The notes beneath the pieces are model-generated. The model had not been told where the DNA came from, did no database searches, and was given only the letters and a program-made list of their open reading frames with translations. From a bacterium (lineage in GTDB: Bacteria; Pseudomonadota; Alphaproteobacteria; Rhodobacterales; Rhodobacteraceae), in assembly GCA_016124195.1 (NCBI GenBank), contig WGOE01000010.1, positions 1 through 64,000 of the forward strand: a DNA stretch of 64,000 nucleotides, read 5' to 3'. Of the stretch, positions 4,661-53,422 are shown piece by piece. Every line of letters starts with the position of its first letter. Positions within the stretch are counted from its first letter, which is position 1. Made by a program: the position numbers and the translations under genes.

Positions 4661-4671
4661 AGCGGGCAGGC

Positions 4672-5409: not shown

Positions 5410-5565
5410 TCGCCGGGCAATGGGTCGGGCATATCCCGCCGGGCATTTCTGTCAACCCAAATGTGCGAGCCATCGTGCCACGCTCTGTCGGGATTGCCGC
5501 TTGACGCGCCTTGTCCTAAGAACGCCCGGAGCCGCCGCGGTTGAATCTGTCAGGAGATGCCTGCA

Positions 5566-6432: not shown

Positions 6433-6548
6433 TCTTTCGGTCGTCCGGGGCAGGGGCGCAATGTGGCTGCCCCAAGCGATACAACGGTCGAGACGACCTT
6501 CAGGGCTTGGGGCCGCTGAAGGACCGGCAGGAAGGAACGGCAAGGCAG

Positions 6549-7316
6549 ATGAAGGCGGTCATCCTCGCGGGCGGGCTTGGAACGCGGATCAGCGAGGAAT
6601 CGCACCTGCGCCCCAAACCCATGATCGAGATCGGCGGCCGGCCGATCCTGTGGCATATCATGAAGCTCTACGGCCATCACGGCATCAGCGAATTCGTGAT
6701 CTGCTGCGGCTACAAGGGCTATGTCATCAAGGAATATTTCGCGAACTACTTCCTGCACATGTCCGACGTGACCTTCGACATGCGTTCGAACAGCATGGAA
6801 GTGCATCACCGCACCGCCGAACCCTGGCGGGTCACGCTGGTCGATACCGGCGAGACGACGCTGACCGGGGGGCGGCTCAAGCGCGTGGCCGATCATCTGG
6901 ACGGGACCTTCTGCCTGACCTATGGCGATGGAGTCTCGGACGTGAACATCGCCGATCTGGTGCGTTTTCACCGTGCAGCCGGCACCGAGGCGACCGTCAC
7001 CGCCATCCAGCCCGAAGGTCGCTTTGGCGCGCTGGAAATCGTCGACGACCGGGTCAGCGCCTTCGAGGAAAAGCCGCGCGGTGACGGTCGCTGGATCAAC
7101 GGCGGCTTTTTCGTCTGCGAGCCTTCCGTTCTGGCGCGGGTCGAAGGCGACCAGACCGCCTGGGAAAGCGAGCCTTTGAAGCAGCTGGCCTCGGACGGGC
7201 AACTGGCTGTCTACCGCCATCAGGGCTTCTGGGCCGCGATGGACACGATGCGCGACAAGATGCGGCTCGAGGCGCAATGGGCCGAGGGGCGCGCGCCCTG
7301 GAAGGTCTGGGGCTGA
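6549..7316 (+). CDS. rfbF: Glucose-1-phosphate cytidylyltransferase
   Basis: A 255-residue enzyme making CDP-glucose from CTP and glucose 1-phosphate, the entry step to CDP-6-deoxyhexoses. It begins with the nucleotidyltransferase loop [18 protein letters not shown] and [34 protein letters not shown] is characteristic of RfbF rather than of dTDP or UDP enzymes. Length matches the usual 257 residues. The start at 6549 puts the first residue at the conserved MKAVILAGG. rfbG starts three bases after the stop. Confidence 0.93.
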
Positions 7317-7319
7317 GGC

Positions 7320-8360
7320 ATGGGGTTCTGGCAAGGCAGGCGCGTGCTGGTGACCGGGCATACCGGGTTTAAGGGGTCCTGGCTTTGCGAGCTCCTTTTG
7401 GGCGAGGGCGCGCGGGTTTCTGGCCTCGCCCTGCCGCCCGAGGGGACGCCGGCGCTGTTCGATCAGCTTGGCCTTGCCGCGCGGATGGATCATGCCGTGG
7501 TCGACCTGCGCGATGCGGCGGCGGTGGCGGCGCGGGTCGCCGCGGTGGCGCCCGAGGTGGTCTTGCACCTTGGCGCGCAATCGCTGGTGCAACGGTCCTA
7601 TCGCCAGCCGGTCGAGACCTGGGCCACCAATGTGCTGGGCACCGTGCATCTTCTGGAGGCGCTGCGCGCGCTGCCCCGGGTTGCCGTGCTCGTGGTGACC
7701 ACCGACAAGGTCTATGAGAACCGCGAATGGGTGCATGGCTACCGCGAAACCGACCGTCTGGGCGGGCATGACCCCTATTCGGCCTCCAAGGCTGCGGCCG
7801 AAATCGCGGTGGACAGCTGGCGCAAGAGCTTTGGCGCGCCGGGTCTCTGGCTTGCCACGGCGCGGGCCGGCAATGTGATAGGTGGCGGCGATTGGGCCGA
7901 AAACCGTATCATCCCGGACCTTGCCCGCGCCTTTGCGGCTGGGCTGCCGCTGGAGGTGCGCAATCCCGGCGCTACCCGGCCCTTCCAGCATGTGCTTGAA
8001 CCGCTAGCAGGCTATCTGCGCCTGTGCGAAAACCTGTGGACCGGTAATCCGGCCTGGCAGGGCGCCTTCAACTTCGGCCCCGAGCCGGGCGATCTGATGA
8101 GCGTGCGCGATCTGGTGACGCAGGCGACCCGAACCTGGCCCGGCACATGGACCGACGCCTCCGACCCCGCCGCCCCGCACGAGGCCGGACGGCTCGCGCT
8201 GACCATCGACAAGGCGCGCTACGATCTGGGCTGGACGCCGCACTGGTCCATTGCCCGCGGCCTGCACGAGACGATCGCCTGGTACCGCGCGGTCCATGAG
8301 GGCGCCGACGCAGCCGCCCTGACCCGCGCCCAGATCGCAACGCATCGGGCCGGCCAATGA
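7320..8360 (+). CDS. rfbG: CDP-glucose 4,6-dehydratase
   Basis: A 346-residue short-chain dehydrogenase/reductase of the extended type that makes CDP-4-keto-6-deoxyglucose. It carries the NAD-binding RVLVTGHTGFKGSWLCELL, where GHTGFKGSWL is the RfbG version of GXXGXXG, then VVTTDKVYEN and the catalytic DPYSASKAAAE (Tyr-X3-Lys). Its final codons overlap the next gene by four bases. Together with RfbF it defines the sugar nucleotide of this cassette as CDP-linked. Confidence 0.93.
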   Translation: MGFWQGRRVLVTGHTGFKGSWLCELLLGEGARVSGLALPPEGTPALFDQLGLAARMDHAVVDLRDAAAVAARVAAVAPEVVLHLGAQSLVQRSYRQPVETWATNVLGTVHLLEALRALPRVAVLVVTTDKVYENREWVHGYRETDRLGGHDPYSASKAAAEIAVDSWRKSFGAPGLWLATARAGNVIGGGDWAENRIIPDLARAFAAGLPLEVRNPGATRPFQHVLEPLAGYLRLCENLWTGNPAWQGAFNFGPEPGDLMSVRDLVTQATRTWPGTWTDASDPAAPHEAGRLALTIDKARYDLGWTPHWSIARGLHETIAWYRAVHEGADAAALTRAQIATHRAGQ

Positions 8361-30791: not shown

Positions 30792-31568
30792 GTGAAACGC
30801 GAAGACCGGCAGCAGGCGATCATGGATTTGCTGGTGGAACAGCACACGGTCGATCTGGATGATCTGGCCGAACGCTTTGTCGTCTCGCGCATGACGATCC
30901 ATCGCGACCTTGACGATCTTGAGGCCGAGGGCCTGTTGCGCAAGATGCGCGGCGGCGCCACGATCGAGGCCGGCACCCAGTTCGAAAGCGACTTCCGCTT
31001 CCGCGCCCGTCAGGAAGGTGCGGCCAAGGCCCGCATGGCACGCGCGGCGCTGGAACTGGTCGAACCCGGCATGACGTTGATGGTCAACGACGGCTCGATG
31101 GCGGCGGTTCTGGGCGCGATGCTGCCCGAACGGCGCCCCCTGACCGTGATCACCAACAACGCGGCCATCATCGACGGCCTCAAATCCGAAAACGGCATCA
31201 CGCTGATTGCCTTGGGCGGCATCTATTCCGCCAAGTTCAACGGCTTTTTCGGAATGGTCACCGAAGAGACCCTGGGCCGGTTGCGCGCCGATCTGGCCTT
31301 CATCTCGACCCCGGCCGTCCAGGGCACCCGCGCCTTTCACATGGATGACAACGTGGTCCGCGCCAAGCGCGCGATGATCGCCTCGGCTGACAGGTCCTGC
31401 CTGCTGGTCAACCATCAGCGCTTTGGCCGTAACGCGCTGCATGTGCTGGCCGAGCTTGGCGATTTCCACACGATCATCACCGACGCGGCCCCCGCGCCGG
31501 ATCAATGCGCGGCGCTGGACCGCGCCGGCTTGCGGCTTCAGGTCGCGCAAGAACGGGAAGAGCCATGA
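30792..31568 (+). CDS. eryR: DeoR-family regulator of the erythritol locus
   Basis: A 258-residue DeoR regulator: winged helix VDLDDLAERFVVSRMTIHRD, wing EAEGLLRKMRGGATIEAG, and a C-terminal sensor with MTLMVNDGSMAAVLGA and HQRFGRNALHVLAEL. It heads eryR-tpiB-rpiB, the gene order seen in rhizobial erythritol loci. The start is a GTG at 30792, five bases after CGGAGG; an ATG at 30788 is out of frame. Its stop overlaps the next ATG. Confidence 0.88.
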   Translation: MKREDRQQAIMDLLVEQHTVDLDDLAERFVVSRMTIHRDLDDLEAEGLLRKMRGGATIEAGTQFESDFRFRARQEGAAKARMARAALELVEPGMTLMVNDGSMAAVLGAMLPERRPLTVITNNAAIIDGLKSENGITLIALGGIYSAKFNGFFGMVTEETLGRLRADLAFISTPAVQGTRAFHMDDNVVRAKRAMIASADRSCLLVNHQRFGRNALHVLAELGDFHTIITDAAPAPDQCAALDRAGLRLQVAQEREEP

Positions 31569-32317
31569 AACAGGTCTGGATCGGCACCAGTTGGAAGATG
31601 AACAAGACCCTGGCCGAGGCGCAGGCCTTTGCCCGCGGCCTGCCCGCCGCCGGTCCTGCGGGGATCCAGCGCTTTGTCATCCCGCCCTTTACCTCGGTGC
31701 GCGAGGTCAAGGCGATGCTTGCCCAGACCTCGGTCAAGGTCGGGGCGCAGAACATGCATTGGGCCGAGGACGGCGCCTGGACCGGCGAGATCTCGCCCCT
31801 GATGCTGCGCGACTGCGATCTGGACATCGTCGAACTGGGCCATTCCGAACGGCGCGCCTTCTTTGGCGAGACCGATGCGACGGTCGGCCTCAAGGTCGAG
31901 GCCGCGGTGCGCCACGGCCTGATCCCCTTGATCTGCATCGGCGAAACCCTGGCCGAACGCGAGGCCGGCCGGGCGACCGAGGTACTTGAAACCCAGGTCC
32001 GCGGCGCCCTTGGCCAGCTGAGCCCTGCGCAGCGCGGGGCCACGATCCTGCTGGCCTATGAGCCGGTCTGGGCCATCGGCGCCAAGGGCATTCCCGCCAG
32101 CGCCGACTATGCCGATGCGCGCCAGGCCGAGATCATCGCGGTGGCCGAAACTGTCCTTGGCACCAGGCCGCCCTGCCTCTACGGCGGCTCGGTCAACCCG
32201 GACAATTGCGCCGACCTGATCCAGTGTCCGCATGTTGACGGGCTTTTCATCGGGCGCTCGGCCTGGGCTGTCGAAGGCTATCTCGACATCCTGGCGCGCT
32301 GTGCGGCCAAACTCTGA
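31565..32317 (+). CDS. eryH: Triosephosphate-isomerase-like D-erythrulose-4-phosphate isomerase
   Basis: A 250-residue TIM-family isomerase (also called TpiB). It has the Asn-Lys pair in [13 protein letters not shown], the catalytic His in [16 protein letters not shown], and the catalytic Glu with mobile loop in [16 protein letters not shown]; the tip differs from IGTGK of housekeeping TPI. In the pathway it interconverts D-erythrulose 4-phosphate and D-erythrulose 1-phosphate type intermediates. It overlaps eryR by four bases. Confidence 0.88.
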
Positions 32318-32340
32318 CTGTTCAACCTCGGGAGACTGAC

Positions 32341-32799
32341 ATGAAACTTGCGATTGCCGGCGACAGTGCCGGCGAAGGGCTGGCCAAGGTGCTGGCAGAC
32401 CATCTGAAATCCAGCCATGACGTGGCCGAGATTTCGCGGACCGCCTCTGGCCCCGATGCCTTCTACGCCAATCTGGCCGACCGCGTGGCCAGTCAGGTTC
32501 TGGACGGTACCTACGACCGCGCCATCCTGGTCTGCGGCACCGGGATTGGCGTGTGCATTTCGGCCAACAAGGTGCCCGGCATTCGCGCGGCCCTGACGCA
32601 TGACACCTATTCCGCCGAACGCGCCGCCCTGTCGAACAATGCCCAGATCATTACCATGGGCGCGCGCGTGATCGGAACCGAGCTTGCCAAGGCCATCGCC
32701 GATGCCTGGCTGAAAGAGACGATGAACTTCGATCCCGCCGGCCGCTCTGCCGGCAATGTCGAGGCGATGAACGCGCTGGACCAAAAGTACAGCGCGTAA
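32341..32799 (+). CDS. eryI: RpiB/LacA-family isomerase yielding D-erythrose 4-phosphate
   Basis: A 152-residue protein of the ribose-5-phosphate isomerase B family. It shows [20 protein letters not shown], the catalytic-Cys loop [20 protein letters not shown], and the phosphate-binding [19 protein letters not shown]. In erythritol catabolism it gives D-erythrose 4-phosphate, which enters the pentose phosphate pathway. It ends the eryR unit, 24 bases after tpiB. Confidence 0.9.
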
Positions 32800-41449: not shown

Positions 41450-42220
41450 TCAGGCTTCGGCCTCGACCTCGGGCTGGCCTTTCACGCCGGTGATATAGCT
41501 GACCACGTCATTGCCATCCGTCTCGGTCTTGTTCAGCGAAGCGACGATGCGCCCGCGGCGGAACACCACGATGCGGTCCACCAGATCGAAGACCTGCCGC
41601 AGATTGTGGCTGACCAGGATCAGCGGCACGCCGCGGTCCTTCAGGCCCCGGATGATGTTCTCGACCTGGGCGGTTTCCTGCACGCCAAGCGCCGCGGTGG
41701 GTTCGTCCATGATCACCAGCTTGGAGGCGAAGGCGGCGGTCCGCGCGATGGCCACGCATTGGCGCTGCCCGCCGCTCATGTTGCGGATCGGGTTGTCGAC
41801 ATTGGGGATCTTTACGGCCGTCGTCTTCAGAGCTTCGAGCGTGCGGCTGCGCATGGCGCGCCGGTCCAGCCAGGAAAACGGCCCCAGTCTGAAGCGGAAC
41901 AACTCGCGCCCCAGAAACAGGTTCGAGGGCACGTCCAGATCGTCGGCCAGGGCCAGGGTCTGGAACACGGTCTCGATTCCGGCCTCGCGCGCCTCGAGCG
42001 GGCCGGAGTGGCTGACAGAATGGCCGTCAAAGTAGATCTCGCCGGCCGAGCGTTGTTCGACACCGGTGATCTGGCGCACGAAGGTGGATTTCCCCGCCCC
42101 GTTGTCGCCCACCACGGCCACGTGTTCGCCGGGGCGCAGCACGAAATTGGCATCCTCGAGCGCATGCACGCCGCCGTAGCGCTTGGTCAGGCCCCGGGTT
42201 TCCAGAATATATTCGCTCAT
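41450..42220 (-). CDS. iatA: Inositol-type ABC transporter ATP-binding protein
   Basis: A 256-residue single-domain ATPase: Walker A GDNGAGKSTFVRQ, signature NMSGGQRQCVAIAR (Met for Leu) and Walker B LVIMDEPTAAL. CUT2 sugar transporters usually use a tandem ATPase of about 500 residues, as eryE does here; this one is half that size and presumably a homodimer. It is last of the binding protein-permease-ATPase unit, three bases after the permease gene. The inositol or rhizopine substrate is inferred from context. Confidence 0.82.
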   Translation of the reverse strand: MSEYILETRGLTKRYGGVHALEDANFVLRPGEHVAVVGDNGAGKSTFVRQITGVEQRSAGEIYFDGHSVSHSGPLEAREAGIETVFQTLALADDLDVPSNLFLGRELFRFRLGPFSWLDRRAMRSRTLEALKTTAVKIPNVDNPIRNMSGGQRQCVAIARTAAFASKLVIMDEPTAALGVQETAQVENIIRGLKDRGVPLILVSHNLRQVFDLVDRIVVFRRGRIVASLNKTETDGNDVVSYITGVKGQPEVEAEA

Positions 42221-42223
42221 GAC

Positions 42224-43360
42224 CTATCCCCGCACCCGGCTGCGTTGCCGCCATTGATCCAGCACCACGGCGCCGACGATGATCGCGCCCTTGACCATCT
42301 CTTGATAATAGGCGTCGAGCCGGATCGAGGTGAAGCCCGAGATGATCACCGAAAAGATCGCGGCACCCAGTACGGTGCCCACGATCGACCCGCGCCCGCC
42401 CGACAGGGACACCCCGCCGATCACCGCCATGGCGATGGCGTCCAGTTCGTATTGCATGCCCATGCCGGCCTGCGCCGTCAGGTTCTTGGAGGTCAGAAGG
42501 ATCGCCGAGACCCCGGCCAGCATGCCGGCGATGGTGTAGACCAGCACCTTGTGGCGGTCGACGTTGATGCCCGACATCCGCGCCGCCGCCTCGTTCGACC
42601 CGATGGCATAGCTGCGCTTGCCATAGAGCGTGTAGATCATCAGCACGTGGAACAGCACGGCCAGGCCCACGAAGACCACGGCGGGGTTCTGACCCTCCCA
42701 GTGCAGCAGGCCGAAGGTCAGCCGGCCCAGCAGGTCACCGTTCGACAGATTGCCATAGGCGGCGGTCGGAAAAGACACCGGGCTGCCGTTCGACCACCAG
42801 CTTGATGCACCGCGCGCCGAAACCATCATGCCCAAGGTGGCGATGAATGGCGGGATTCGGGTATAGGCAACCAGGATGCCGTTCACAAAGCCTGCGAGGA
42901 TGCCGCAGCCAAGCCCCACGCAGATGGGTACTATGACCGGCAGATCCATCCAGGCCGGCCCGAACAGCGCCTTGGGGTTGGGGTTGCCGTTGACCAGCGC
43001 GGTCTGGGCAAAGCTCATGGTGATCATTGCCGTGGCGCCCACGATCGAGCCCGAAGACAGGTCGATGCCGCCCAGGATGATGACCTGCGTGACGCCAAGC
43101 GCGATGATGCCCACGATGGCCACCTGCAGGATCATGATGTCCAGCCGCTGCTGGTTGAAGATCCCCGGCATGTTCTCGCGCATGTTGAACAGGAAACTGG
43201 TGCCGTTCAGCCGGTTCAAGACTTCAAAGATGATGACGATGAACACCAAAGCCGCGAAGACGTTCCATTCCGGGGCCCTCGTCCGTTTGGCCGGGTCGTA
43301 TTTCAGGCCGCCCAGACCATGCACCGATTGCGAACCAGACTGCGATGCCGGTTTCGACAT
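42224..43360 (-). CDS. iatP: Inositol-type ABC transporter permease
   Basis: A 378-residue CUT2 permease with about ten membrane segments. Conserved features are LGVTQVIILGGIDLSSGSIV, NGILVAYTRIPPFIATLGM and the coupling segment GVSLSGGRGSIVGTVLGA near residue 310. An N-terminal cytoplasmic extension of about 35 residues precedes the first helix. The ATG at 43360 follows GAGAGGAAG. A GC-rich hairpin separates it from the binding-protein gene. Confidence 0.85.
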   Translation of the reverse strand: MSKPASQSGSQSVHGLGGLKYDPAKRTRAPEWNVFAALVFIVIIFEVLNRLNGTSFLFNMRENMPGIFNQQRLDIMILQVAIVGIIALGVTQVIILGGIDLSSGSIVGATAMITMSFAQTALVNGNPNPKALFGPAWMDLPVIVPICVGLGCGILAGFVNGILVAYTRIPPFIATLGMMVSARGASSWWSNGSPVSFPTAAYGNLSNGDLLGRLTFGLLHWEGQNPAVVFVGLAVLFHVLMIYTLYGKRSYAIGSNEAAARMSGINVDRHKVLVYTIAGMLAGVSAILLTSKNLTAQAGMGMQYELDAIAMAVIGGVSLSGGRGSIVGTVLGAAIFSVIISGFTSIRLDAYYQEMVKGAIIVGAVVLDQWRQRSRVRG

Positions 43361-43465: not shown

Positions 43466-44404
43466 TCAGTTCTTCTTGACGAAGTCCGCCATGTTCTTCG
43501 GCGTCACCAGCTGGAAGGGGATGTAGACCTTCTTCTCGACCTTCTCGCCCTTGGACAGTTTGACGGCCGCATCCAGCGCGCCGGCACCCTGGCCCGCCGC
43601 ATCCTGGAACACGGTGATGTCCTGATCGCCTGCCGCCATCGCGGCCAGAGCGTCCTGGGTCGCATCCACGCCGGCGACGATGACCGACTTCATGTCGATA
43701 TTGGCCGCCTTCATCGCCTGGATGGCGCCGATCGCCATTTCGTCGTTGTTGGCGATGACCGCGTCGAAGGGCTTGCCGGTCGACAGCCAGTTGGTCATCA
43801 GGGTTTGCGCCTCGTCGCGCGACCAGTTGGCGGTCTGCTCGTCGATGATGTTGACCTTGACGCCGCAATCCGGGCCCGAGATCACGTCATGCACGTCCTT
43901 GGTGCGCATCACGGCCGCCTGGTTGGACAGCTGGCCCTCCATCACGTAGACGTTGGCCTCGGTCTTGCCGGCGGCCTTGAGTTCGGCGCAGACTTCCTTG
44001 GTTTCCAGCGTGCCCGAATCCGCCTCGTTCGAGGCCACGAAGGCCTGATTGTCGGGCAGCGTGTCGACGTTGACCGGCTGGCGGTTCACATAGACCAGCG
44101 GAATTTTCGCCTTGGCGGCCGCATCCGACATGGCTTGCGTGGCCGAGGTATCGACCGGGTTCACGATGATCGCCGAAACGCCCGAGGCGATGAAGTTGTT
44201 GATCTGGTCCAACTGCTTGGCCACGTCGTCCTTGGCGTCCTCGATCTGGACCTTCTGGCCGTTCTTGTCGGCATAGGCCTGCAGGCCGTTGCGCAGGACG
44301 GTCAGGAAGTTGTCGTCGAACTTGGCCATCGAAACGCCGATGTCTGCCATGGCGCTGGTGCCCATCAGGGCGGCCAAGCCAGCGATCAGTAGGGTCTTTT
44401 TCAT
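43466..44404 (-). CDS. ibpA: Inositol/rhizopine-type periplasmic binding protein
   Basis: A 312-residue CUT2 binding protein resembling IbpA of Caulobacter and MocB. The signal peptide MKKTLLIAGLAALMGTSAMA is followed by IGVSMAKFDDNFLTVLRNGL, then IIVNPVDTSATQAMSDAAA and VIANNDEMAIGAIQAMKAA. Its surroundings (iolI, mocD, mocE) point to inositol or an inosamine as ligand. The ATG at 44404 follows GGAGAG. MocB is an equally fair name. Confidence 0.82.
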   Translation of the reverse strand: MKKTLLIAGLAALMGTSAMADIGVSMAKFDDNFLTVLRNGLQAYADKNGQKVQIEDAKDDVAKQLDQINNFIASGVSAIIVNPVDTSATQAMSDAAAKAKIPLVYVNRQPVNVDTLPDNQAFVASNEADSGTLETKEVCAELKAAGKTEANVYVMEGQLSNQAAVMRTKDVHDVISGPDCGVKVNIIDEQTANWSRDEAQTLMTNWLSTGKPFDAVIANNDEMAIGAIQAMKAANIDMKSVIVAGVDATQDALAAMAAGDQDITVFQDAAGQGAGALDAAVKLSKGEKVEKKVYIPFQLVTPKNMADFVKKN

Positions 44405-44490
44405 GGGTCTCTCCTCCACAAGTTGGTGTCCGGCACACCTTTTCTCCCGCCGGACCGCCCTTCCGGGCGGTATTCTCAGGCCCGTCATCC

Positions 44491-45300
44491 TCAGGCGGCG
44501 GCCGTGCCCTGCCGGATGAAATTCATCGACGCGGTCAGGGCCGCCTTCGGGTCCGCCAGATCATGGACCTCGCTGGCGAAGGGCTCGTATGAAATCGGCC
44601 CGGCATAGCCCGCCGCCCGCAAGGCGCGAATCTGGGCGACATTGCCCAGGATATCATCAGCATCGACCAGAACCCGATGGCTGTCGCGCATGTCGCCGAC
44701 ATAGATCGGCGCCTTCACCCCCGAAACATGCACGATCCCGGTCAGGTCTGGATAGATCGGCCCGAAGCCTGCCAGCGCGTGGTGGAAGGTGTCATGCACG
44801 ATGAAATAGGTGCCCCGCCCGCCCACGGTGTCGATCACTTCGGCCAGGATATCCTTGTAGCGCAGACTGCACACCTCGAAGCCCAGGGGTTCGACCATGG
44901 CCTTGAGCCCATGGGCGCGCAGCATCGGCAAGAGGGCGCGCAGCGCGGTTTCGGTCACCGCGCGGCTTTCGGCGCGCGAGGTGGCGACATTGTCGTTGCG
45001 CGGGATCAGGCTGATCGCTTCGGCGCCACAGGCGACGGCGATCTTCATCAGGGCTTCGGCCTCGGCGCGCTTGGTCTCGGACCAGTCGTTGAACATCTTG
45101 ACCTCGGCCAGGGCCAGGACCCGCAGGCCCCTTGCAGAGGCCGCCGCACCCACCTCGGCCGGGTCGGCGCCGTCAAACAGGGCGCCCGGCAGGTCGTTGC
45201 GGAACTCGACCCCGACGCAGCCCAGATCGCGGGCGAGGTCGAGGAAGGCCGGCCAGCCAAGCCTGGGGGCGGTCATATGGTTCAAGGCAAACGGCAGCAT
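44491..45300 (-). CDS. iolI: Inosose isomerase-like TIM-barrel protein
   Basis: A 269-residue sugar-phosphate isomerase/epimerase-fold protein. LPFALNHMTAPRLGWPAFL begins it; MVEPLGFEVCSLRYK, FIVHDTFHHALAG and GIVHVSGVKAPI supply likely metal ligands, and SYEPFASEVHDL closes the barrel. The layout matches IolI, which interconverts 2-keto-myo-inositol and 1-keto-D-chiro-inositol. The ATG at 45300 removes 32 unlikely residues of a longer reading. It heads the leftward operon with the transporter. Confidence 0.78.
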   Translation of the reverse strand: MLPFALNHMTAPRLGWPAFLDLARDLGCVGVEFRNDLPGALFDGADPAEVGAAASARGLRVLALAEVKMFNDWSETKRAEAEALMKIAVACGAEAISLIPRNDNVATSRAESRAVTETALRALLPMLRAHGLKAMVEPLGFEVCSLRYKDILAEVIDTVGGRGTYFIVHDTFHHALAGFGPIYPDLTGIVHVSGVKAPIYVGDMRDSHRVLVDADDILGNVAQIRALRAAGYAGPISYEPFASEVHDLADPKAALTASMNFIRQGTAAA

Positions 45301-45438: not shown

Positions 45439-46488
45439 TCAAAGTGACTCGGCCACATGCAGATCGGGGGGCAGGAAATATTGCGAGGTTCCCCCCGAAG
45501 CGCCCCCCGAACTGGCCTGTGCGGCGCCGTCGAGCCGGGCCGTCACCATCAGCGACACCAAAGTGCGGCACAGCTTTTCCAGGGGCGTGTCGATGACCAT
45601 CGAGACGATACCCTCGGCCAGGCCCGCCCGCGAATCGGGCGTCAGCGCCGAAACCACGATCGGCACCCGCCGCGCCACCGGGCTTTCGCGCAGGGCGGCG
45701 ATGGCGCCCTCCATCCCGCCGCCGGCAACATAGATGCCGCGCAACTGCGGCTGGTTGGCCAGAAGCCCAAGGGTCGCGTCGTAGGTCAGTTGCCGCGTCT
45801 CCAGATTGACCAGCGGGTCCAGCACGGTCAGATGCGGCGCGCATTCGCGCAGATAGCCGCGAAAGCCGGTTTCGCGCAGATCGTGCCCGTGCCAGCGGTG
45901 GCCGCCGACGAAAATCGCCATCACCCCGGGCTGGCGCGACAAAGTGGCCATGATCCAGCCCGCCGTGCGCCCGACCTTGAGGTTGTTGAGCCCGATATAC
46001 CCTGCGCGCACCCCCTGGCCGAAATCGGACAGGAGCGAAAAGACCGGCACGCCGGCCGCACGCAGGTCTTCGACCGCCGCTGTCACCTCGGGATGATTGA
46101 CGGCGGTGGCGGCCAGCACGTCGCAGCGTCCGGCCATGGCGCGCAGGTGGCTGGCCATTTCGCTGGGGGCCTGGCTCGGCGAAAACTCCAGCACGAGTTG
46201 GGCTCGCACACCGACCGCCTGCGAGACGGCAAGGGTGATCGCCTCGGCAAAGGCCTTGTAGAAATCCTGCCCCTGCTTGTGCAACAGCATGCCGATCCGC
46301 ACCTGCGGCAGGTCGTCGTCCAGCTTCAAGAGGCGCCGCGCGGCGGGATGGTTGATCCGCCGGGCCGCCTCGGCGATTTGCTGGCGGGTCTCCTCGCGCA
46401 CAGCTTCGCGCCCGTTCAGAACCCGGTCCACGGTGGCCACGGAAACCCCGGCTGCGGCAGCCAGCGCCGCCATGCCCAGTCGTTTCAT
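45439..46488 (-). CDS. LacI-family regulator with inositol/ribose-type sensor domain
   Basis: A 349-residue LacI-type regulator. The helix-turn-helix MAALAAAAGVSVATVDRVLN has Asp where Ser is usual (TVDRVLNGR), a variant seen in a LacI subgroup with periplasmic-binding-protein-4 sensor domains. The sensor shows VRIGMLLHKQGQDFYKAFAE and YIGLNNLKVGRTAGWIMATL. It lies between the leftward iolI-ibpA unit and the rightward mocDE unit. The ATG at 46488 sits a few residues before the helix-turn-helix. Confidence 0.83.
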   Translation of the reverse strand: MKRLGMAALAAAAGVSVATVDRVLNGREAVREETRQQIAEAARRINHPAARRLLKLDDDLPQVRIGMLLHKQGQDFYKAFAEAITLAVSQAVGVRAQLVLEFSPSQAPSEMASHLRAMAGRCDVLAATAVNHPEVTAAVEDLRAAGVPVFSLLSDFGQGVRAGYIGLNNLKVGRTAGWIMATLSRQPGVMAIFVGGHRWHGHDLRETGFRGYLRECAPHLTVLDPLVNLETRQLTYDATLGLLANQPQLRGIYVAGGGMEGAIAALRESPVARRVPIVVSALTPDSRAGLAEGIVSMVIDTPLEKLCRTLVSLMVTARLDGAAQASSGGASGGTSQYFLPPDLHVAESL

Positions 46489-46519
46489 CCCGATCCCTTT
46501 CGCATCCGATCGGCCGATC

Positions 46520-46619: not shown

Positions 46620-47696
46620 ATGGCACGTCGAGATTACAATCTGCTGGGGCCGGACGGTCAGCGCGCGGTCGAGACCGGGCTTGCGGCGGCGGAATGGTAT
46701 CACACGGCCGTGCCGCGCAAGGTGATGAAGGACCTGATGCAACGCTCAGACGGTCCGGCGATCCGCGACACGCTGCTGCTTTATGCCCTGATGATCGGCT
46801 TTGCCGGAGCGGGTGTGGCGCTTTGGCCCAGTTGGTGGTCGGCGCCGTTCTGGCTGGCTTACGGCGTACTGTACGGGTCGGCCTCGGACAGCCGCTGGCA
46901 TGAAACCTCGCATGGCACGGCCTTCAAGACGCCGTGGATGAACAACGTGGTCTATCAGATCGCCTGCTTCATGATCGTGCGCAATCCGGTGTCGTGGCGC
47001 TGGAGCCACGCCCGCCATCATACCGACACCTATATCGTGGGCCGCGACCCCGAAATCGCCATCATGCGCCCGCCGGTGCTGTTCAAGCTGATCGGCAATT
47101 TCTTCGGCATCTTCGACGCCTGGGCCGGGTGGAGCCGGATGCTCCTGAACGCCACCGGACGGCTTGATCCGCAAGAGGCGACCTATATCCCCAAGACCGA
47201 GGTCGCCAAGGTGATCACGGTCGCCCGGATCTGGACGCTGATCTATGCCGCCACGATCGCCCTGGCGCTGGCGCTGCATTCGATCCTGCCTCTGATGGTG
47301 ATCGGCCTGCCGCGGCTTTACGGCGCCTGGCATCATGTGCTGACCGGCCTTTTGCAGCATGGCGGGCTGGCCGACAATGTGATCGACCACCGGCTGAACT
47401 CGCGCACCGTTTACATGAACCCGATTTCGCGGTTCATCTACTGGAACATGAACTACCACATCGAACACCACATGTTCCCGATGGTGCCCTACCACGCCCT
47501 GCCGCGCCTGCATGCGCTGATCAAGGACGACCTGCCGGCGCCCAGCCGCTCGATGGCCGCGGCCTATGCCGAGATGTGGCCCGTGCTCTTGCGGCAGCTG
47601 CGCAACGAGGACTGCTTTCTGCGGCGCGACCTGCCCGCCGCGGCCAAGCCCTACCGTGAAGATTTTCACATCGGTGCCCTTGGCGCCGCGGAATAG
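46620..47696 (+). CDS. mocD: MocD-like fatty-acid-desaturase-fold oxygenase
   Basis: A 358-residue membrane di-iron oxygenase. The eight-His signature is present as HETSHGT, SHARHHTDT and NYHIEHHMFP, with several membrane helices around them (for example LLLYALMIGFAGAGVALWP). In rhizopine catabolism MocD with ferredoxin MocE is thought to oxidatively demethylate 3-O-methyl-scyllo-inosamine. The ATG at 46620 follows GGGGAGG. The Rieske gene starts ten bases after its stop, strong support for MocDE. Confidence 0.82.
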   Translation: MARRDYNLLGPDGQRAVETGLAAAEWYHTAVPRKVMKDLMQRSDGPAIRDTLLLYALMIGFAGAGVALWPSWWSAPFWLAYGVLYGSASDSRWHETSHGTAFKTPWMNNVVYQIACFMIVRNPVSWRWSHARHHTDTYIVGRDPEIAIMRPPVLFKLIGNFFGIFDAWAGWSRMLLNATGRLDPQEATYIPKTEVAKVITVARIWTLIYAATIALALALHSILPLMVIGLPRLYGAWHHVLTGLLQHGGLADNVIDHRLNSRTVYMNPISRFIYWNMNYHIEHHMFPMVPYHALPRLHALIKDDLPAPSRSMAAAYAEMWPVLLRQLRNEDCFLRRDLPAAAKPYREDFHIGALGAAE

Positions 47697-47705
47697 GAGA
47701 GTGAT

Positions 47706-48020
47706 ATGACCGACTGGATCGACGCCTGCGCCACCGATGACATCGACGAAGAGGACCTGATCCGCTTTGACCATGCCGGGGCGACCTATGCCATCTATCA
47801 CTCGCCCGAAGGCAAGTTCTACGCCACCGCCGGTCGGTGCACGCATGAGGATATCCATCTGGCCGATGGTCTTGTGATGGATCACCTGATCGAATGTCCC
47901 AAGCACAACGGCCGGTTCGACTATCGGACCGGCGAGGCGAAACGGGCGCCGGTCTGCGTCAACCTGCGCACCTATCCGGTCAAGGTCGAAGACGGCCGCG
48001 TCTTCATCAAGGTGGCATGA
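47706..48020 (+). CDS. mocE: MocE-like Rieske ferredoxin
   Basis: A 104-residue soluble electron carrier. The Rieske [2Fe-2S] ligands are in GRCTHEDIHL (Cys-X-His) and ECPKHNGRFDYRTG (Cys-X2-His). It should pass electrons to the oxygenase encoded just upstream. No ferredoxin reductase (MocF) lies in the window, so a partner encoded elsewhere must reduce it. Its stop overlaps the start of the PanB-like gene as ATGA. Confidence 0.9.
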   Translation: MTDWIDACATDDIDEEDLIRFDHAGATYAIYHSPEGKFYATAGRCTHEDIHLADGLVMDHLIECPKHNGRFDYRTGEAKRAPVCVNLRTYPVKVEDGRVFIKVA

Positions 48021-48820
48021 TGGCGCGGCGTCTGACGGTGAAGGACCTTCTGGACCAGCGCGGCAAGCACCAGTTCGCGATGCTGCGGGTCGAAACCCTG
48101 GCCGAGGCCGAAGCGGCCGAGAAGGCCGGCGTCGAGCTTTTGTCCGTGCCGCCCGCGATGATCCTTGACCGGCAGTTCCGCGACGCGGCGCCCACGGCCT
48201 TTGCCTTTCCGGGCGACAATTTCTATGAAATCGGCGACACGGCGGATTTCCTGAGATGGGCCTTTCCGCTGTTCAAGCACGGCGCGGACGGGTTCTACTG
48301 CTCTGGCAGCCTTCAGACCGTCAAGGCGATGGCCGACCATGGCCTGCCGGTCTGCGGCCATGTCGGGCTCATCCCGTCCAAGGCCACCTGGACGGGCGGC
48401 TTCAAGGCGGTGGGCAAGACGATCGACAGCGCGATCCGGGTCTATGAACAATGCAGGGCGCTGGAGGCCGCCGGCGCCTTTGCCGTCGAGATCGAGGTCG
48501 TACCCCATGCCATCACGAAAGCCATCGCCGAACGGACCGGCTTGTTCCTGATCTCGATGGGGGCAGGGGGCGCGGGTCATGCGCAGTATCTGTTCTCGGA
48601 CGATGTGTTGGGGCAGAACCCCGGCCACGTGCCGCGCCACGCCAGGCAGTACGCCGATCTTGGCGCCGAATACGCTCGGCTCCAGCAGATGCGCATCGCC
48701 GCCATGACCGAATTTGCGGCCGAGGTGCATGGCGGTGCCTATCCCGCGCCGGCCCATCTGGTCGAGGCCGATCCCAGCGTGGTGGAGGAGTTTCGCGCCT
48801 GGCTCGACCTCAACCCCTGA
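48017..48820 (+). CDS. PanB-like protein (ketopantoate hydroxymethyltransferase fold) coupled to MocDE
   Basis: A 267-residue TIM-barrel protein related to 3-methyl-2-oxobutanoate hydroxymethyltransferase. The C-terminal half fits well: GHVGLIPSKATWTGGFKAVG, ALEAAGAFAVEIEVVP with the catalytic Glu, ISMGAGGAGHAQYLFSDDVL. In the N-terminal half the magnesium-binding VGDS motif of PanB reads SVPPAM, so it is probably not a true PanB. PanB enzymes use methylene-tetrahydrofolate; coupling to an O-demethylase suggests handling of released formaldehyde. That role is inference. Confidence 0.75.
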   Translation: MMARRLTVKDLLDQRGKHQFAMLRVETLAEAEAAEKAGVELLSVPPAMILDRQFRDAAPTAFAFPGDNFYEIGDTADFLRWAFPLFKHGADGFYCSGSLQTVKAMADHGLPVCGHVGLIPSKATWTGGFKAVGKTIDSAIRVYEQCRALEAAGAFAVEIEVVPHAITKAIAERTGLFLISMGAGGAGHAQYLFSDDVLGQNPGHVPRHARQYADLGAEYARLQQMRIAAMTEFAAEVHGGAYPAPAHLVEADPSVVEEFRAWLDLNP

Positions 48821-48824
48821 GGGG

Positions 48825-50120
48825 TCAGCCCGCGTAACCGGCCAGTCGCGGCAGGAACAGCACGATGTCGGGCACGAAGATCATCACGAGAAGGGCGCCG
48901 ATCAGCACGATCAGGAAGGGCGCAATCTCGGCGATGATCTCGCGCAGGGAAATCCCGGTGATCGCGTTGATCACGAACAAAAGGATGCCATAGGGCGGCG
49001 TGATCAGGCCGATCATGCAGTTGACCACGGCGACCACGCCAAAGTGGACAAGGTCGATGTGCAGCGTGTTGCAGGTCGGCAGGAACAGCGGGATGATGAC
49101 CAGAATGATCGTGGTCGCATCCAGAAAGCAGCCCAGGATCAAGAGCAGCAGGTTGACGCCCAAGAGAAACACGAGGGGCGAGACATTCATCCCCGCGATG
49201 GCCCCCGCCACCATGTTCGGGATGTTCTCGGACGCCACGATGTAGTTGAGCAGCAGCGCCCCCCCGATCACCAGTCCCACCGCGGCCGAGGACCGCGCGC
49301 TGTCCACGAAGATGCCGTAGAGCGCCCGCCACGACAGCGCCCGGTAGACCAGCGCCGACAGCAACAGCGCGTATAGCGCCGCCACCGCCGCGGCCTCGGT
49401 CGGGGTCGTGATGCCGCCATAGATGCCGTAAAGCAGGATCACCGGCATCAGCAGGGCCGGAAAGGCACGCCCGGTCACGGCCGGCAATTCGCGCAGCGCC
49501 ACCGGCTTTTCGACGGCAAAGCCGCGGCGATGCGCCATGAAGGTGTTCAGCCCCATCAGGACCGCCCCCATCAGCAGCCCAGGCAGGATGCCGCCCAGAA
49601 ACAGATGGCCGATCGAGGCATTCGAGACCAGCGCATAAAGCACCATCGGAATCGACGGCGGGATGATCGGTCCGATGGTCGCGCCGGCCGCCGTGATCGC
49701 CGCGGCATAGCCGGGCGGAAAGCGGTTGTCCTTGCGCATCATGTCGATGATGATCTTGCCGATCCCCGCCGCATCGGCCACAGCCGATCCCGACATGCCC
49801 GAAAAGATCAGCGAGGCCATGATGTTGACATGGCCCAGCCCGCCGCGAAACCGGCCCACCGTCGCAAGGCAGAAGTTCAGGAGCCTCTCGGTCACCGAGC
49901 CTGCGTTCATGATGTTGGCCGCCACGATGAACAGCGGCACCGCCAGCAGAAGGAAGCTTTGATAGACCCCGTCCAGCAGCCCCTTGCCGGTGACGCCGAT
50001 GCTTTGGCCATGCACCGCCAGATAGGACATCGAGGCCAGGATGATCGCATAGGCGACCGGCACGCCAATGCCCGCCAGCAAGAACAGCGCGCCGATGCAG
50101 ACGATCAGTTCGGGGCTCAT
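48825..50120 (-). CDS. TRAP transporter large permease (DctM)
   Basis: A 431-residue inner-membrane protein with about 12 helices, the channel subunit of a tripartite ATP-independent transporter. Typical segments are PLFIVAANIMNAGSVTERLL, SGMSGSAVADAAGIGKI and AAGATIGPIIPPSIPMVLY. The start at 50120 overlaps the dctQ stop as ATGA. It ends four bases from the convergent PanB-like gene. Confidence 0.93.
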   Translation of the reverse strand: MSPELIVCIGALFLLAGIGVPVAYAIILASMSYLAVHGQSIGVTGKGLLDGVYQSFLLLAVPLFIVAANIMNAGSVTERLLNFCLATVGRFRGGLGHVNIMASLIFSGMSGSAVADAAGIGKIIIDMMRKDNRFPPGYAAAITAAGATIGPIIPPSIPMVLYALVSNASIGHLFLGGILPGLLMGAVLMGLNTFMAHRRGFAVEKPVALRELPAVTGRAFPALLMPVILLYGIYGGITTPTEAAAVAALYALLLSALVYRALSWRALYGIFVDSARSSAAVGLVIGGALLLNYIVASENIPNMVAGAIAGMNVSPLVFLLGVNLLLLILGCFLDATTIILVIIPLFLPTCNTLHIDLVHFGVVAVVNCMIGLITPPYGILLFVINAITGISLREIIAEIAPFLIVLIGALLVMIFVPDIVLFLPRLAGYAG

Positions 50121-50665
50121 TCGTCGGTCACCTCCAGATGGTGATGGTCCTCGCCCTCGGCGCCGTGCCGCAGCACGTCGATTGCGCGCCACAGATAGCG
50201 CAGACCCACCACCACCAGGAAGACGAAGTAGATCGAATAGATCGGGAACATCTTGACCCCCAGCGTGGCCGAGGATTTCAGCTTCAGGATGGCCAGCTTG
50301 TCATAGGTCGGCCCGATCGAGGCCAAAAGCCCGAAGGCCACCGCCAGCGCGCCGATCACGGCGAACCACTTGCGCAGCCCGGGCCTGACCCAGAAGTAGA
50401 TGATGTCGAAGGTGACATGGTCCTTTTCCCGGACCACGAAGGCATTGCCCCAGAATACGATCCACAGCCACAGGACCAGGCAGAATTCCAGCGTCCATCC
50501 GAAGGAGGCCGCGCTGATCACGCCGCCAAACCGCGCCATGAACCAGGCAGAGCCCATGATGTAGCGCACGGCGATCTGCAGGATGAAGGTTGCGAACATG
50601 GCCGCCATCAACAGGGCCGCCACGCCTTCCGCACAGGTGATGAAGGCCCTCGCCAATCTGGCCAT
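50117..50665 (-). CDS. TRAP transporter small permease (DctQ)
   Basis: A 182-residue protein with four membrane helices, typical of DctQ. Family features are WTLEFCLVLWLWIVFWGNAF and REKDHVTFDIIYFWV. It pairs with DctM. The ATG at 50665 follows GGAGG at a good distance. The gap from the binding-protein gene is 29 bp. Confidence 0.9.
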   Translation of the reverse strand: MARLARAFITCAEGVAALLMAAMFATFILQIAVRYIMGSAWFMARFGGVISAASFGWTLEFCLVLWLWIVFWGNAFVVREKDHVTFDIIYFWVRPGLRKWFAVIGALAVAFGLLASIGPTYDKLAILKLKSSATLGVKMFPIYSIYFVFLVVVGLRYLWRAIDVLRHGAEGEDHHHLEVTDE

Positions 50666-50694
50666 GCCCGCGACCTCCTCCCAAAGGGTCCGGA

Positions 50695-51705
50695 TCAGGC
50701 GCCGAGCGCGTTGATCTTGTCCAGAAGCCCCGCTGGCCACTGCTTGGCCATGTCAGAGGACAGATAGGCCTCTTGCACATGCTTGCGGAAGGCCGCGACA
50801 TCGGGCTCGTAAATCTCCAGCCCCTTGTCCTTGAGGAAGGCGACCAGGTCCTCCTCTTTCTTCAGCTGGTTGGTGCGGCCGAAGTCGGCCGTGTCGTCCG
50901 CCGCCTTCTGCAGCGTGGCCTGCTGGTCGGGCGTCAGCTTGTTCCAGGCATCGAGCGACAGCGCCAGATAGTTGAGGTCCACCAGATGCGAGGTCAGCAC
51001 GATCTGCTTGGTGACCTCGTAGAACTTGGCGTCAACCACGGTCGGCAGCGGATTGTCCTGCCCGTCGATCGCACCGCTTTGCAGGGCGGTATAGACCTCG
51101 GTGAAGGCCATCGGCGTTGGGTTGGCCCCCAAAGCGCGGCCAAGGAACTGCCAGGCGTCCGATCCCGGTATCCGCAGCTTGACGCCCGCCATGTCGGCCG
51201 GGGTCTTCACCTCGCGCTCGGCCTTGGTCATGCGCAGGTTGATCTGGCGGCGGCCGAGGTAGATCACGGTCAGCAGCTTGACCTTCAGCGTGTCTTCCGC
51301 CTTCTTCTTGAAATCGTCCATCAGGGGCGCGTTGAAGACGGCCACCTGATGCGCCGCACTCTGGTGGACATAGCCCGCCGAGAAAATCGAGAATTCGGGG
51401 ATGAAGGTCGCCAGTTCCTGCGCCGAGGTCAGCGACATTTCCAGATCGCCCGAGGCGATCGCCTCAAGCTCGGTGCCCTGCTGGAACAGCGTGCCGTTCC
51501 AATGCGGCTCGAAATCGGCAAAGCCCGAGACTTCCGGGCCGAACTTCTGCATCAGGGCGATGGCGCGCTGATCGGTTTCGGAATTCACGCCCGACATGCG
51601 CAGACGCAGCTTGCCTTCGGCCAGGGCCCGCATCGGCATGGCGGCCAGCGTCGCAGAGGCCGCGGCAGCGCCCAAGAGGCTGCGCCGGGTGAAAGAAGTG
51701 GTCAT
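50695..51705 (-). CDS. TRAP transporter substrate-binding protein (DctP)
   Basis: A 336-residue periplasmic binding protein with a twin-arginine-like signal (FTRRSLLGAAAASATLAAMP). The DctP Arg that binds the substrate carboxylate is expected in VKLRIPGSDAWQFLGRALG. AFTEVYTALQSGAIDGQDNP is the family motif. The ligand should be an organic acid; the neighbouring aldolase suggests a sugar acid or its keto-deoxy derivative. Confidence 0.9.
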   Translation of the reverse strand: MTTSFTRRSLLGAAAASATLAAMPMRALAEGKLRLRMSGVNSETDQRAIALMQKFGPEVSGFADFEPHWNGTLFQQGTELEAIASGDLEMSLTSAQELATFIPEFSIFSAGYVHQSAAHQVAVFNAPLMDDFKKKAEDTLKVKLLTVIYLGRRQINLRMTKAEREVKTPADMAGVKLRIPGSDAWQFLGRALGANPTPMAFTEVYTALQSGAIDGQDNPLPTVVDAKFYEVTKQIVLTSHLVDLNYLALSLDAWNKLTPDQQATLQKAADDTADFGRTNQLKKEEDLVAFLKDKGLEIYEPDVAAFRKHVQEAYLSSDMAKQWPAGLLDKINALGA

Positions 51706-51803
51706 CTTTGTCCTCCCTGTGGTCGGATCAGCCTGCGTCTCCCGCGCAGTCGACTCCGATAGAACGGCTGATAGGCAAAAAAATCCAGGGCGTCCAGATA
51801 AAT

Positions 51804-51824
51804 CGATTATTGGCCATCGAATCG
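51804..51824. promoter_or_regulatory. Possible operator in the TRAP/GntR divergent region
   Basis: CGATT (51804-51808) and AATCG (51820-51824) form a short inverted repeat with an 11-base spacer, in an AT-richer patch between dctP and the GntR gene. It is a weak candidate site for the GntR regulator. Confidence 0.25.
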
Positions 51825-51885
51825 TTCTTGTGGCTTTACTTCGGTTCTGTGCCGGCGCTATGTGAACGCAACCGGGAGGCCTGAG

Positions 51886-52590
51886 ATGTCCGCTATCGAT
51901 CTGACCGCACGACTGGCCGGCAAGCCTACCATCGCAGGCCAGACCGAGCTGCGGCTGCGGCGCGACATCCTGACCGGCGTGCTTGCGCCGGGGGCCAAGC
52001 TCAACCTCGACAAGCTGCGCGAGACCATGGACGTGGGCCTGTCCCCCCTGCGCGAGGCGGTGACCCGGCTGGTGTCGGACGGGTTGATCGAGGTCGAAAC
52101 ACACCGCGGCTATTCGGTCGCGCCGATCTCGATTGCCAACCTCAAGGAGGTCAGCGCCCTGCGGTCCGAACTGGAACCCTTTGCCCTGCGCCACTCCATC
52201 GCCCGGGGCGGGCTGGACTGGGAGGCCGCGGTGATGGCCGCGCTGTACCGCGTCAACAAGATCGAGCGTGATCCCGACGACCCGGCCAGCCGCGCCACTT
52301 GGGAGGCCGCCAACAACGCCTTTCACCACACGTTGATCTCGGCCTGCGAGATGCCGCTCTTGCTCAAGATCCATGGCGCGCTGGTCACGATGAATGACCG
52401 CTACCGCAACCTCTATTCCGATGCCGTGACGGTGCAGCGCGACGTCGTCGAAGAACATACGGCGCTTGCCACGGCCGCTGTCGAGCGCCGGGCCGATGCG
52501 GCGGCGGAAATCCTGAAGGCGCATATCGACCGTTCGGTTGTGATCCTGCTGGACATGATCGCCCGCACGCATCCGGACGAGATGCGCTGA
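51886..52590 (+). CDS. GntR-family regulator, FCD type
   Basis: A 234-residue regulator. The winged helix has LNLDKLRETMDVGLSPLREA and LVSDGLIEVETHRGYSVAPI; the C-terminal helical FCD domain has ALRSELEPFALRHSIARGG, FHHTLISAC and EEHTALATAAVERRADAAA, with the metal-binding His expected. It diverges from dctPQM and is followed by an aldolase, so it probably controls both. The ATG at 51886 follows GGGAGG. Confidence 0.87.
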   Translation: MSAIDLTARLAGKPTIAGQTELRLRRDILTGVLAPGAKLNLDKLRETMDVGLSPLREAVTRLVSDGLIEVETHRGYSVAPISIANLKEVSALRSELEPFALRHSIARGGLDWEAAVMAALYRVNKIERDPDDPASRATWEAANNAFHHTLISACEMPLLLKIHGALVTMNDRYRNLYSDAVTVQRDVVEEHTALATAAVERRADAAAEILKAHIDRSVVILLDMIARTHPDEMR

Positions 52591-52660
52591 TGGCGCCCGC
52601 GCGACCGGTCGGGTGCGCCGCAGACCGACCCAACCAGTGGAAACCAGAAGGAAAACCAAG

Positions 52661-53422
52661 ATGGACTTGCCAAAGAACGCCTTCAAGGCCGCGCTCAAGG
52701 AAGGCCGCCGGCAGATCGGTCTGTGGATTTCGATTCCCGAGGCGGGTCTTGTCGAGATGCTGGCCGGCTGCGGCTATGACTGGATCCTGCTTGATACCGA
52801 ACATGCCGCGATGGGGGCGGTCGAGACCATGCCCCTGATGCAGGCCTCCGCCCCCTATCCGGTGACCACCATCATCCGCCCGGGCTGGAACAACCCGGTC
52901 GAGATCAAGAAGATGCTTGATTGCGGCGCCCAGACCCTGCTGATCCCCTATGTGCAGAATGCCGAAGAGGCGCGCGCCGCCGTTGCCGCGGTGCGCTATC
53001 CGCCGGCCGGCATCCGCGGGGTGGCCGGCATCACTCGCGCCACCCGGTTCGGCGCCGTCAAGGACTATGCCAGACATGCCCATGAAGAGATCTGCCTGCT
53101 GGTGCAGGTCGAAACCGCCCAGGCGCTGAGCCAGATCGAAGAAATCGCCAAGGTCGAGGGCGTCGACGGCATCTTCATCGGCCCGGCCGATCTTGCCGCC
53201 TCGATGGGCCATGCCGGCGAGCCCTCGCATCCCGCGGTGCGGGCCGCGGTGATGGACGGGCTGCGCCGGATCCGCGCGGCGGGCATCCCGCCCGGCATCC
53301 TGTCGCTGGATCAGGCCTTCCTGCGTGAAGCCGCCGAGGCGGGCGCCCAGTTCATCGGCGTGGATGTCGATGCCGCCCTTCTGCGCAATGGCGCGCTGGC
53401 TCGCCGGGCCGAGTGGAAGTAG
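52661..53422 (+). CDS. HpcH/HpaI-family class II aldolase
   Basis: A 253-residue metal-dependent pyruvate aldolase. It shows GLWISIPEAGLVEMLAG, the catalytic His in DWILLDTEHAAM, Glu in LLVQVETAQAL and Asp in IFIGPADLAASMG. Relatives are 2-keto-3-deoxyglucarate (GarL) and 2-keto-3-deoxyrhamnonate aldolases. With the TRAP transporter and the dehydratases at 58-62 kb it suggests sugar-acid degradation. The ATG at 52661 follows AGAAGGAAAA. Confidence 0.88.
   Translation: MDLPKNAFKAALKEGRRQIGLWISIPEAGLVEMLAGCGYDWILLDTEHAAMGAVETMPLMQASAPYPVTTIIRPGWNNPVEIKKMLDCGAQTLLIPYVQNAEEARAAVAAVRYPPAGIRGVAGITRATRFGAVKDYARHAHEEICLLVQVETAQALSQIEEIAKVEGVDGIFIGPADLAASMGHAGEPSHPAVRAAVMDGLRRIRAAGIPPGILSLDQAFLREAAEAGAQFIGVDVDAALLRNGALARRAEWK

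Follow-up and report, generated by a model that had tools for sequence, protein, structure and literature searches.

The window analyzed here is a 64,000-nucleotide stretch of contig WGOE01000010.1 from a bacterium of the Rhodobacteraceae, and positions 46620-48820 of it hold a three-gene module for a MocD-like oxygenase, the ferredoxin MocE, and a PanB-fold protein that we call PanBL. The genes are as follows.

46620-47696, plus strand: mocD-like gene for a membrane di-iron oxygenase (FA_desaturase) of 358 amino acids (aa); PF00487, 117.8 bits against a cut-off of 29.7.
47706-48020, plus strand: mocE, encoding a Rieske [2Fe-2S] ferredoxin of 104 aa (CTH...CPKH); TIGR02377, 172.4 bits against a cut-off of 136.15.
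48017-48820, plus strand: PanB-like gene for PanBL, 267 aa; PF02548 (Pantoate_transf), 121 bits against a cut-off of 28.7.

Open frames and family scans bore out the first-pass annotation, which had placed a MocD, a MocE, and an overlapping PanB-like gene here: the ATG of PanBL at 48017 overlaps the mocE TGA (48018-48020). The His motifs HETSH, HARHH, and HIEHH of a MocD-type oxygenase were visible in the mocD-like translation, and the protein was 79% identical to its counterpart in a same-genus genome (locus L013). The predicted structure of PanBL had the PanB barrel fold; Foldseek alignments of the model to PanB gave rmsd values of 4.8-15.7 and TM scores of ∼0.6-0.7, and the fold claim rests on a separate comparison. 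A loop at residues 120-128, rich in invariant positions, was modeled poorly. When scanned with TIGR00222 (panB), PanBL scored 87.3 bits and did not reach the equivalog cut-off of 207.55, and its relatives at loci L199 and L198 scored 111.8 and 107.1 bits.

The genome of the window has four genes matching PF02548, namely a canonical PanB scoring 357 bits, encoded on contig 5 next to a panC match (47% identity to Escherichia coli PanC), and three PanBL copies, located in the window, on C12, and on C14. TIGR02377 identified three MocE proteins over the cut-off in the same genome, all at the three PanBL loci, along with one weak match below it; the distances between MocE and PanBL were 3, 14, and 832 bases. 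The C12 locus has the order mocD-mocE-PanBL, and the C14 locus encodes an FA_hydroxylase (sterol-desaturase type), MocE, a TIM-barrel protein, PanBL, and a Gfo/Idh-like protein.

Comparison with E. coli PanB (1m3u; 34% identity, spanning 149 residues only) revealed extensive changes at D45, D84, K112, and E114, which we take to be the metal and keto-acid ligands of that enzyme. D84, K112, and E114 are replaced by G66, Y94, and S96 in the window PanBL; among 46 linked rows D84 was kept in one, K112 and E114 in none, and D45, in a region of uncertain alignment, in seven. The PanBL gene also differs from canonical panB in sitting with mocDE rather than panC. Retained in the window protein are H115, E160, and D196 (H136, E181, and D217 of E. 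coli PanB), and E158 stands where the E. coli enzyme has V179. All 63 PanBL rows, which span several oxygenase classes, carry these four residues, H, E, E, and D. The Glu at the V179 position is not exclusive to PanBL, being carried too by the PanB-like rows L174-L176. That second PanB-like group is ∼40-43% identical to the genome's canonical PanB and retains a VGDSLGM-type motif; in L176 (region 4212-8209) its gene lies near a lyase gene that looks CitE-like by eye and a GcvT-like gene, together with a weak Rieske match, and this is possibly another one-carbon (C1) module.

PanBL carries the annotation of a vitamin B5 enzyme, a role that it very probably does not have. Its PF02548 match and the automatic annotation of its relatives would make it a second ketopantoate synthase, but we find that role scarcely credible given the canonical PanB next to a panC match, the low TIGR00222 score, and the loss of most metal ligands. 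It is also contradicted, for an orthologue, by a published experiment. Of 12 active-site residues, the product of the second panB gene on p42e of R. etli (RHE_PE00443) retains 5; CD-search detected no metal-binding domain in it, and the gene fails to complement a panB mutant even if constitutively expressed, the data not being shown there (PMC3082293). The p42e region in our set (L197) has one gene with that product, following mocD, mocE, and a gene for a FAD-dependent oxidoreductase; it encodes 271 aa versus 270 in the paper, and we equated it with RHE_PE00443 on the basis of plasmid, product, and length rather than locus tag. The L197 protein is 54% identical to the window PanBL. A second pantothenate enzyme was therefore rejected, and the case that the first-pass annotation had named against itself, a PanB-like protein that complements a panB mutant as the only ketopantoate synthase of the organism, did not turn up.

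Linkage of PanBL to mocD and mocE, which the first-pass annotation had proposed to look for in other genomes, was recurrent. A sample of 100 genomes of the family yielded 37 PanBL places (E ≤ 2e-33; weaker matches, mainly canonical PanB, were dropped) and 36 MocE places (E ≤ 1e-20; 27 over the family cut-off). MocE was within 2.1 kb of 21 of the former, and PanBL within 2.1 kb of 21 of the latter. Counted per genome, 17 had both, 4 PanBL alone, 8 MocE alone, and 71 neither (Fisher p 6.6e-10, genome kinship ignored). At nine control loci where canonical PanB was the best match (L033-L041, 1.5 kb flanks), mocD was present in none, and a weak Rieske match (29% identity, E ∼2e-7) occurred at two (L034 and L035). 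A scan of 84,980 species, one genome each, gave at least 495 confirmed relatives; the 80 best of these, together with the window, L009, and L010, made up 83 loci, and the PanBL gene was called in 81. Within nine genes, the MocD cluster was found in 78 and the MocE cluster in 76 of these 81 loci, with MocE immediately upstream of PanBL in 66. A non-redundant set of 77 loci taken from genome contigs had an oxygenase in 74 (within 6 kb), MocE in 72, and PurU in 9. Genome searches provided 54 further non-redundant loci, some with flanks of only 1.5 kb or ending at a contig edge, with an oxygenase in 33, MocE or a ferredoxin in 22, either in 37, PurU in 2, and FolD in 1; this tally left out L174-L177, which are nearer true PanB, and L165_0, a true PanB. 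In the PanBL tree, the window's clade comprised 31 rows, 30 of them with MocD, a sterol-desaturase-type oxygenase, or MocE nearby, and the lone exception (L153) begins 225 bases from a contig end; unlinked rows fell mostly in other, more divergent clades. Plasmid records, which are redundant by strain, contained PanBL in 274 cases (E ≤ 1e-30), MocD in 266 (E ≤ 1e-50), and MocD, MocE, and PanBL at one place in 232. Matches were obtained in 36 of 385 genomes of the class sample (E ≤ 1e-35, canonical-like PanBs included) and in 19 of 398 of the phylum sample (E ≤ 1e-50), the latter all from the window's class. Chance adjacency was rejected on the family-sample co-occurrence, the 232 plasmid records, and the 30 of 31 rows in the clade, and the opposite outcome envisaged earlier, a general lack of linkage between homologues and mocDE elsewhere, was not encountered.

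The oxygenase partners were of several classes: MocD desaturases, enzymes of the FA_hydroxylase/sterol-desaturase type (L010, L201, and L203), and a Rieske oxygenase (L190). At L203 a ProX protein scored over its cut-off and hydroxyproline dehydratase-like proteins scored under theirs, which suggests an N-methyl betaine as the substrate there. A divergent PanBL group (L160, L161, L163, L165, and L167-L170; ∼37-43% identity) is spread over several families within the class, in most cases with neither MocD nor MocE in the vicinity, and L165 has a Rieske oxygenase match close to its PanBL. Genome G259 (L159, L164, and L166), an AT-rich genome of 1.6 Mb, carries four PanBL copies, two in tandem, a notable load for its size.

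Some PanBL loci also contain folate genes. PurU (formyltetrahydrofolate deformylase) was found in 11 of 123 loci (at L070 on the opposite strand) and exceeded the equivalog cut-off at L090, L073, and L198. On the annotated plasmids L198, L199, and L200, purU directly follows PanBL. FolD is encoded at three loci, after PanBL in L182 and after PurU in L199 and L200, the L200 folD being a tblastn match in two pieces that is unannotated there. PanBL and PurU were at one place in 42 plasmid records. The arrangement of a folD/purU-type demethylation operon was thus seen in those 11 loci and at L198, L199, and L200, and was absent beside the window PanBL. PurU is uncommon within the window's family: 26 of 100 genomes have it (31 copies), and only the copy of G034, the sole one of that genome, adjoins PanBL. 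In a PurU tree with 14 linked rows and 18 background rows, the latter drawn entirely from the window's family, the linkage label needs five changes, of which supported branches alone force two; the bootstrap was unsettled. PurU thus seems to have become associated with PanBL on more than one occasion. L222 and L223 (long branches), L224 (same gene as L154), and L225 were dropped from this tree. At L031, a MocD-PanBL-MocE set adjoins a GcvT-like gene (25% identity, E 2e-14), a possible folate-protein neighbor.

We assign a probability of roughly two in three to the reading that the three genes form an oxidative demethylation and C1-capture module, in which PanBL loads formaldehyde onto tetrahydrofolate (THF) and FolD and PurU lead the unit to formate. 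MocD, with electrons arriving by way of MocE and a reductase, would hydroxylate a methyl substituent of a compound resembling a sugar or cyclitol, and the hydroxylated product would collapse to the demethylated compound and formaldehyde. PanBL would then condense formaldehyde with THF to 5,10-methylene-THF, which FolD and PurU, in the same operon in some relatives, would convert to 10-formyl-THF and on to formate, freeing THF. Our sequence analysis demonstrates the gene content, the linkage, the placing of purU beside PanBL in several PurU lineages, the predicted fold, and the residue losses; that the window module demethylates its substrate, that PanBL binds THF, and that it catalyzes the condensation are what we infer. 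A C1 unit is the likeliest thing for PanBL to handle because oxygenase class and carbon skeleton vary between loci.

Known systems provide partial parallels. Sarcosine oxidase and MABO load the C1 unit onto THF themselves, and their operons carry purU or folD plus purU (PMC3691474, PMC6214936). The MABO-folD-purU (pAO1) and glyA-soxBDAG-purU operons resemble the proposed module in oxidative demethylation, transfer of the C1 unit to methylene-THF, and subsequent use of FolD and/or PurU; they differ in that THF is used by the oxidase itself, a task that our proposal gives to a distinct PanB-fold protein, and in the oxygenase, which in the present module is a di-iron enzyme of the membrane. L182, L199, and L200 match their arrangement, with PanBL replacing the THF-using oxidase. 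A microbe wholly dependent on spontaneous condensation of formaldehyde with THF would reportedly need ∼24 days to double, and Fae is the known enzyme for condensing formaldehyde with another carrier (PMC7073904). The Fae of methylotrophs, which uses tetrahydromethanopterin, is comparable in its enzyme-accelerated formaldehyde-pterin condensation, an activity that for PanBL is proposed, and differs in the carrier. Growth of E. coli by the spontaneous route was unchanged after deletion of panB and ltaE (PMC7073904), and canonical PanB therefore offers no evidence for formaldehyde-THF activity.

Several observations weigh against this capture module. No purU, folD, or reductase gene adjoins PanBL in the window, the sole PurU of the genome is on another contig (C5:430525), and purU lies beside PanBL only in a minority of loci (2 of the 54 non-redundant genome-search loci). 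In the family sample, 15 of 36 MocE places had no PanBL, and 16 of 37 PanBL places no MocE, within 2.1 kb; among the 54 loci, 17, mostly divergent members, had neither an oxygenase nor MocE nearby, and a universal link between PanBL and an oxygenase was rejected on that count. Having lost its metal ligands, PanBL could have another catalytic role or none, putative THF binding derives from homology to PanB alone, and a literature search, judged by titles, abstract openings, and term counts, gave no work on a MocDE-linked PanB-like activity; PMC3082293 examined one member, for pantothenate only. Of the earlier suggestion of a dedicated O-demethylation and C1-capture module, the recurrent linkage and the purU and folD neighbors speak for the module, and the rhizopine identity of the window did not hold.

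The first-pass annotation had also given the PanB-like protein a C1 role, possibly with an aldol acceptor. Its tie to one-carbon genes stood. We consider transfer to folate more likely than the acceptor form, given that most of the ligands for metal and keto acid have disappeared and that the purU and folD neighbors indicate THF, with formate as the exit. A hydroxymethyltransferase with a new, non-keto-acid acceptor, taking its C1 unit from methylene-THF or formaldehyde, would suit the C1-transfer chemistry of PanB and the retained E181 and H136 positions, and direct condensation of formaldehyde with the keto acid has been attributed to some PanB variants (PMC7073904). The ligand losses in nearly all linked rows and the folate genes nevertheless make such an enzyme unlikely, and no common acceptor-making gene is visible, since no neighbor cluster besides mocD and mocE exceeds 51 of the 81 loci.

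It is rather improbable that PanBL serves the demethylase in a structural or otherwise non-catalytic way, for example by binding the oxygenase/ferredoxin complex or shielding formaldehyde. The mocE-PanBL gene overlap in the window and the loss of known catalytic ligands would fit this role, but an active site is suggested because H, E, E, and D are invariant in the presence of different oxygenase classes, and the PanBL places distant from MocE also argue against it. Still more doubtful is an action of PanBL on the demethylated substrate itself, as an aldolase or isomerase of a sugar or cyclitol pathway; the barrel does group with PanB, PEP mutase, and isocitrate lyase-type folds, and sugar genes are abundant at many PanBL loci, but PanBL occurs in inositol-like, rhizopine, and hydroxyproline-like loci that share no common skeleton, and purU and folD would be left unexplained.

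We also considered whether the window is a rhizopine locus. Rhizopine units consist of mocDEF, mocR, mocBA, and mocC, with a rhizopine-inducible mocD promoter (PMC10107442), and LacI-type FixV homologues adjoin mocDEF together with a TIM-barrel epimerase (PMC3538637); the available parts of these two accounts mention no PanB-like gene. The window shares the MocD-MocE order and family with mocDEF of rhizopine catabolism (Sinorhizobium/Rhizobium) and the LacI plus TIM-barrel arrangement with FixV-type moc loci, its LacI-type regulator sitting where FixV does. Unlike rhizopine mocDEF loci, it has a LacI-type regulator and no adjacent reductase. The MocR model NF052281 was matched neither by this divergent regulator nor by the GntR regulator at 51862, and the substrate-binding protein scored 28.2 bits on the rhizopine model NF052284 against a cut-off of 420, so the rhizopine-type assignment was abandoned for the window. 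NF052281 (cut-off 650) was passed by the regulators of L198 (S. meliloti RCAM1115, 756.5) and L200 (R. indicum, 739), where the order after the MocR regulator is mocD, mocE, a FAD-dependent reductase gene, PanBL, and purU. The L198 mocD is unannotated and has a broken frame, and the L200 transporter substrate-binding protein scored 138 on NF052284.

The neighbors preceding the module, with the occurrence of their clusters in the 81 loci, are listed here.

45439-46473, minus strand: divergent LacI-type regulator, start uncertain; PF00356 and PF13407 (scanned as 45442-46512); 42 of 81.
44491-45300, minus strand: TIM-barrel sugar isomerase/epimerase-like protein (AP_endonuc_2); 36 of 81.
43466-44419, minus strand: sugar ABC substrate-binding protein (PF13407), which we take to be of the CUT2 type; 35 of 81.
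42224-43324, minus strand: ABC permease, named by eye from the sequence; 37 of 81.
41450-42220, minus strand: ABC ATPase, named by eye from the sequence; 51 of 81, probably including paralogues.

Other window neighbors include an IolC-domain kinase (307.2, over the cut-off of 300), IolB-like (161.7 versus 205) and IolE-like (180 versus 290) proteins that are both under their cut-offs, and a D-erythrulose-4-phosphate isomerase (249.3, over 240). Our guess for the substrate of the module is a methylated cyclitol or sugar. Positions 30792-32799 hold an erythritol-type catabolic set, with a DeoR-type regulator (under the model cut-offs) and triosephosphate and D-erythrulose-4-phosphate isomerases (both over). 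Past PanBL, 48825-53422 contains TRAP-type transporter genes (minus strand, by eye) followed by a GntR/FCD regulator and an HpcH/HpaI aldolase (plus strand).

A wider proposal, for which we hold the odds to be even, is that PanBL is a dedicated THF-dependent formaldehyde-activating enzyme, the folate counterpart of Fae, derived from ketopantoate synthase by loss of the keto-acid/metal site and common to many alphaproteobacterial O- and N-demethylation pathways, the rhizopine operon included. With a separate PanB-fold family in demethylase operons that carry purU or folD, a free-standing THF enzyme becomes directly testable. The finding would correct the misleading annotation "3-methyl-2-oxobutanoate hydroxymethyltransferase", a matter that touches the 274 plasmid records with a match. 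If true, it would enlarge the rhizopine operon by two genes and supply a part for engineered formaldehyde assimilation, and PanBL may be the catcher of the toxic formaldehyde released by MocDE-type demethylases.
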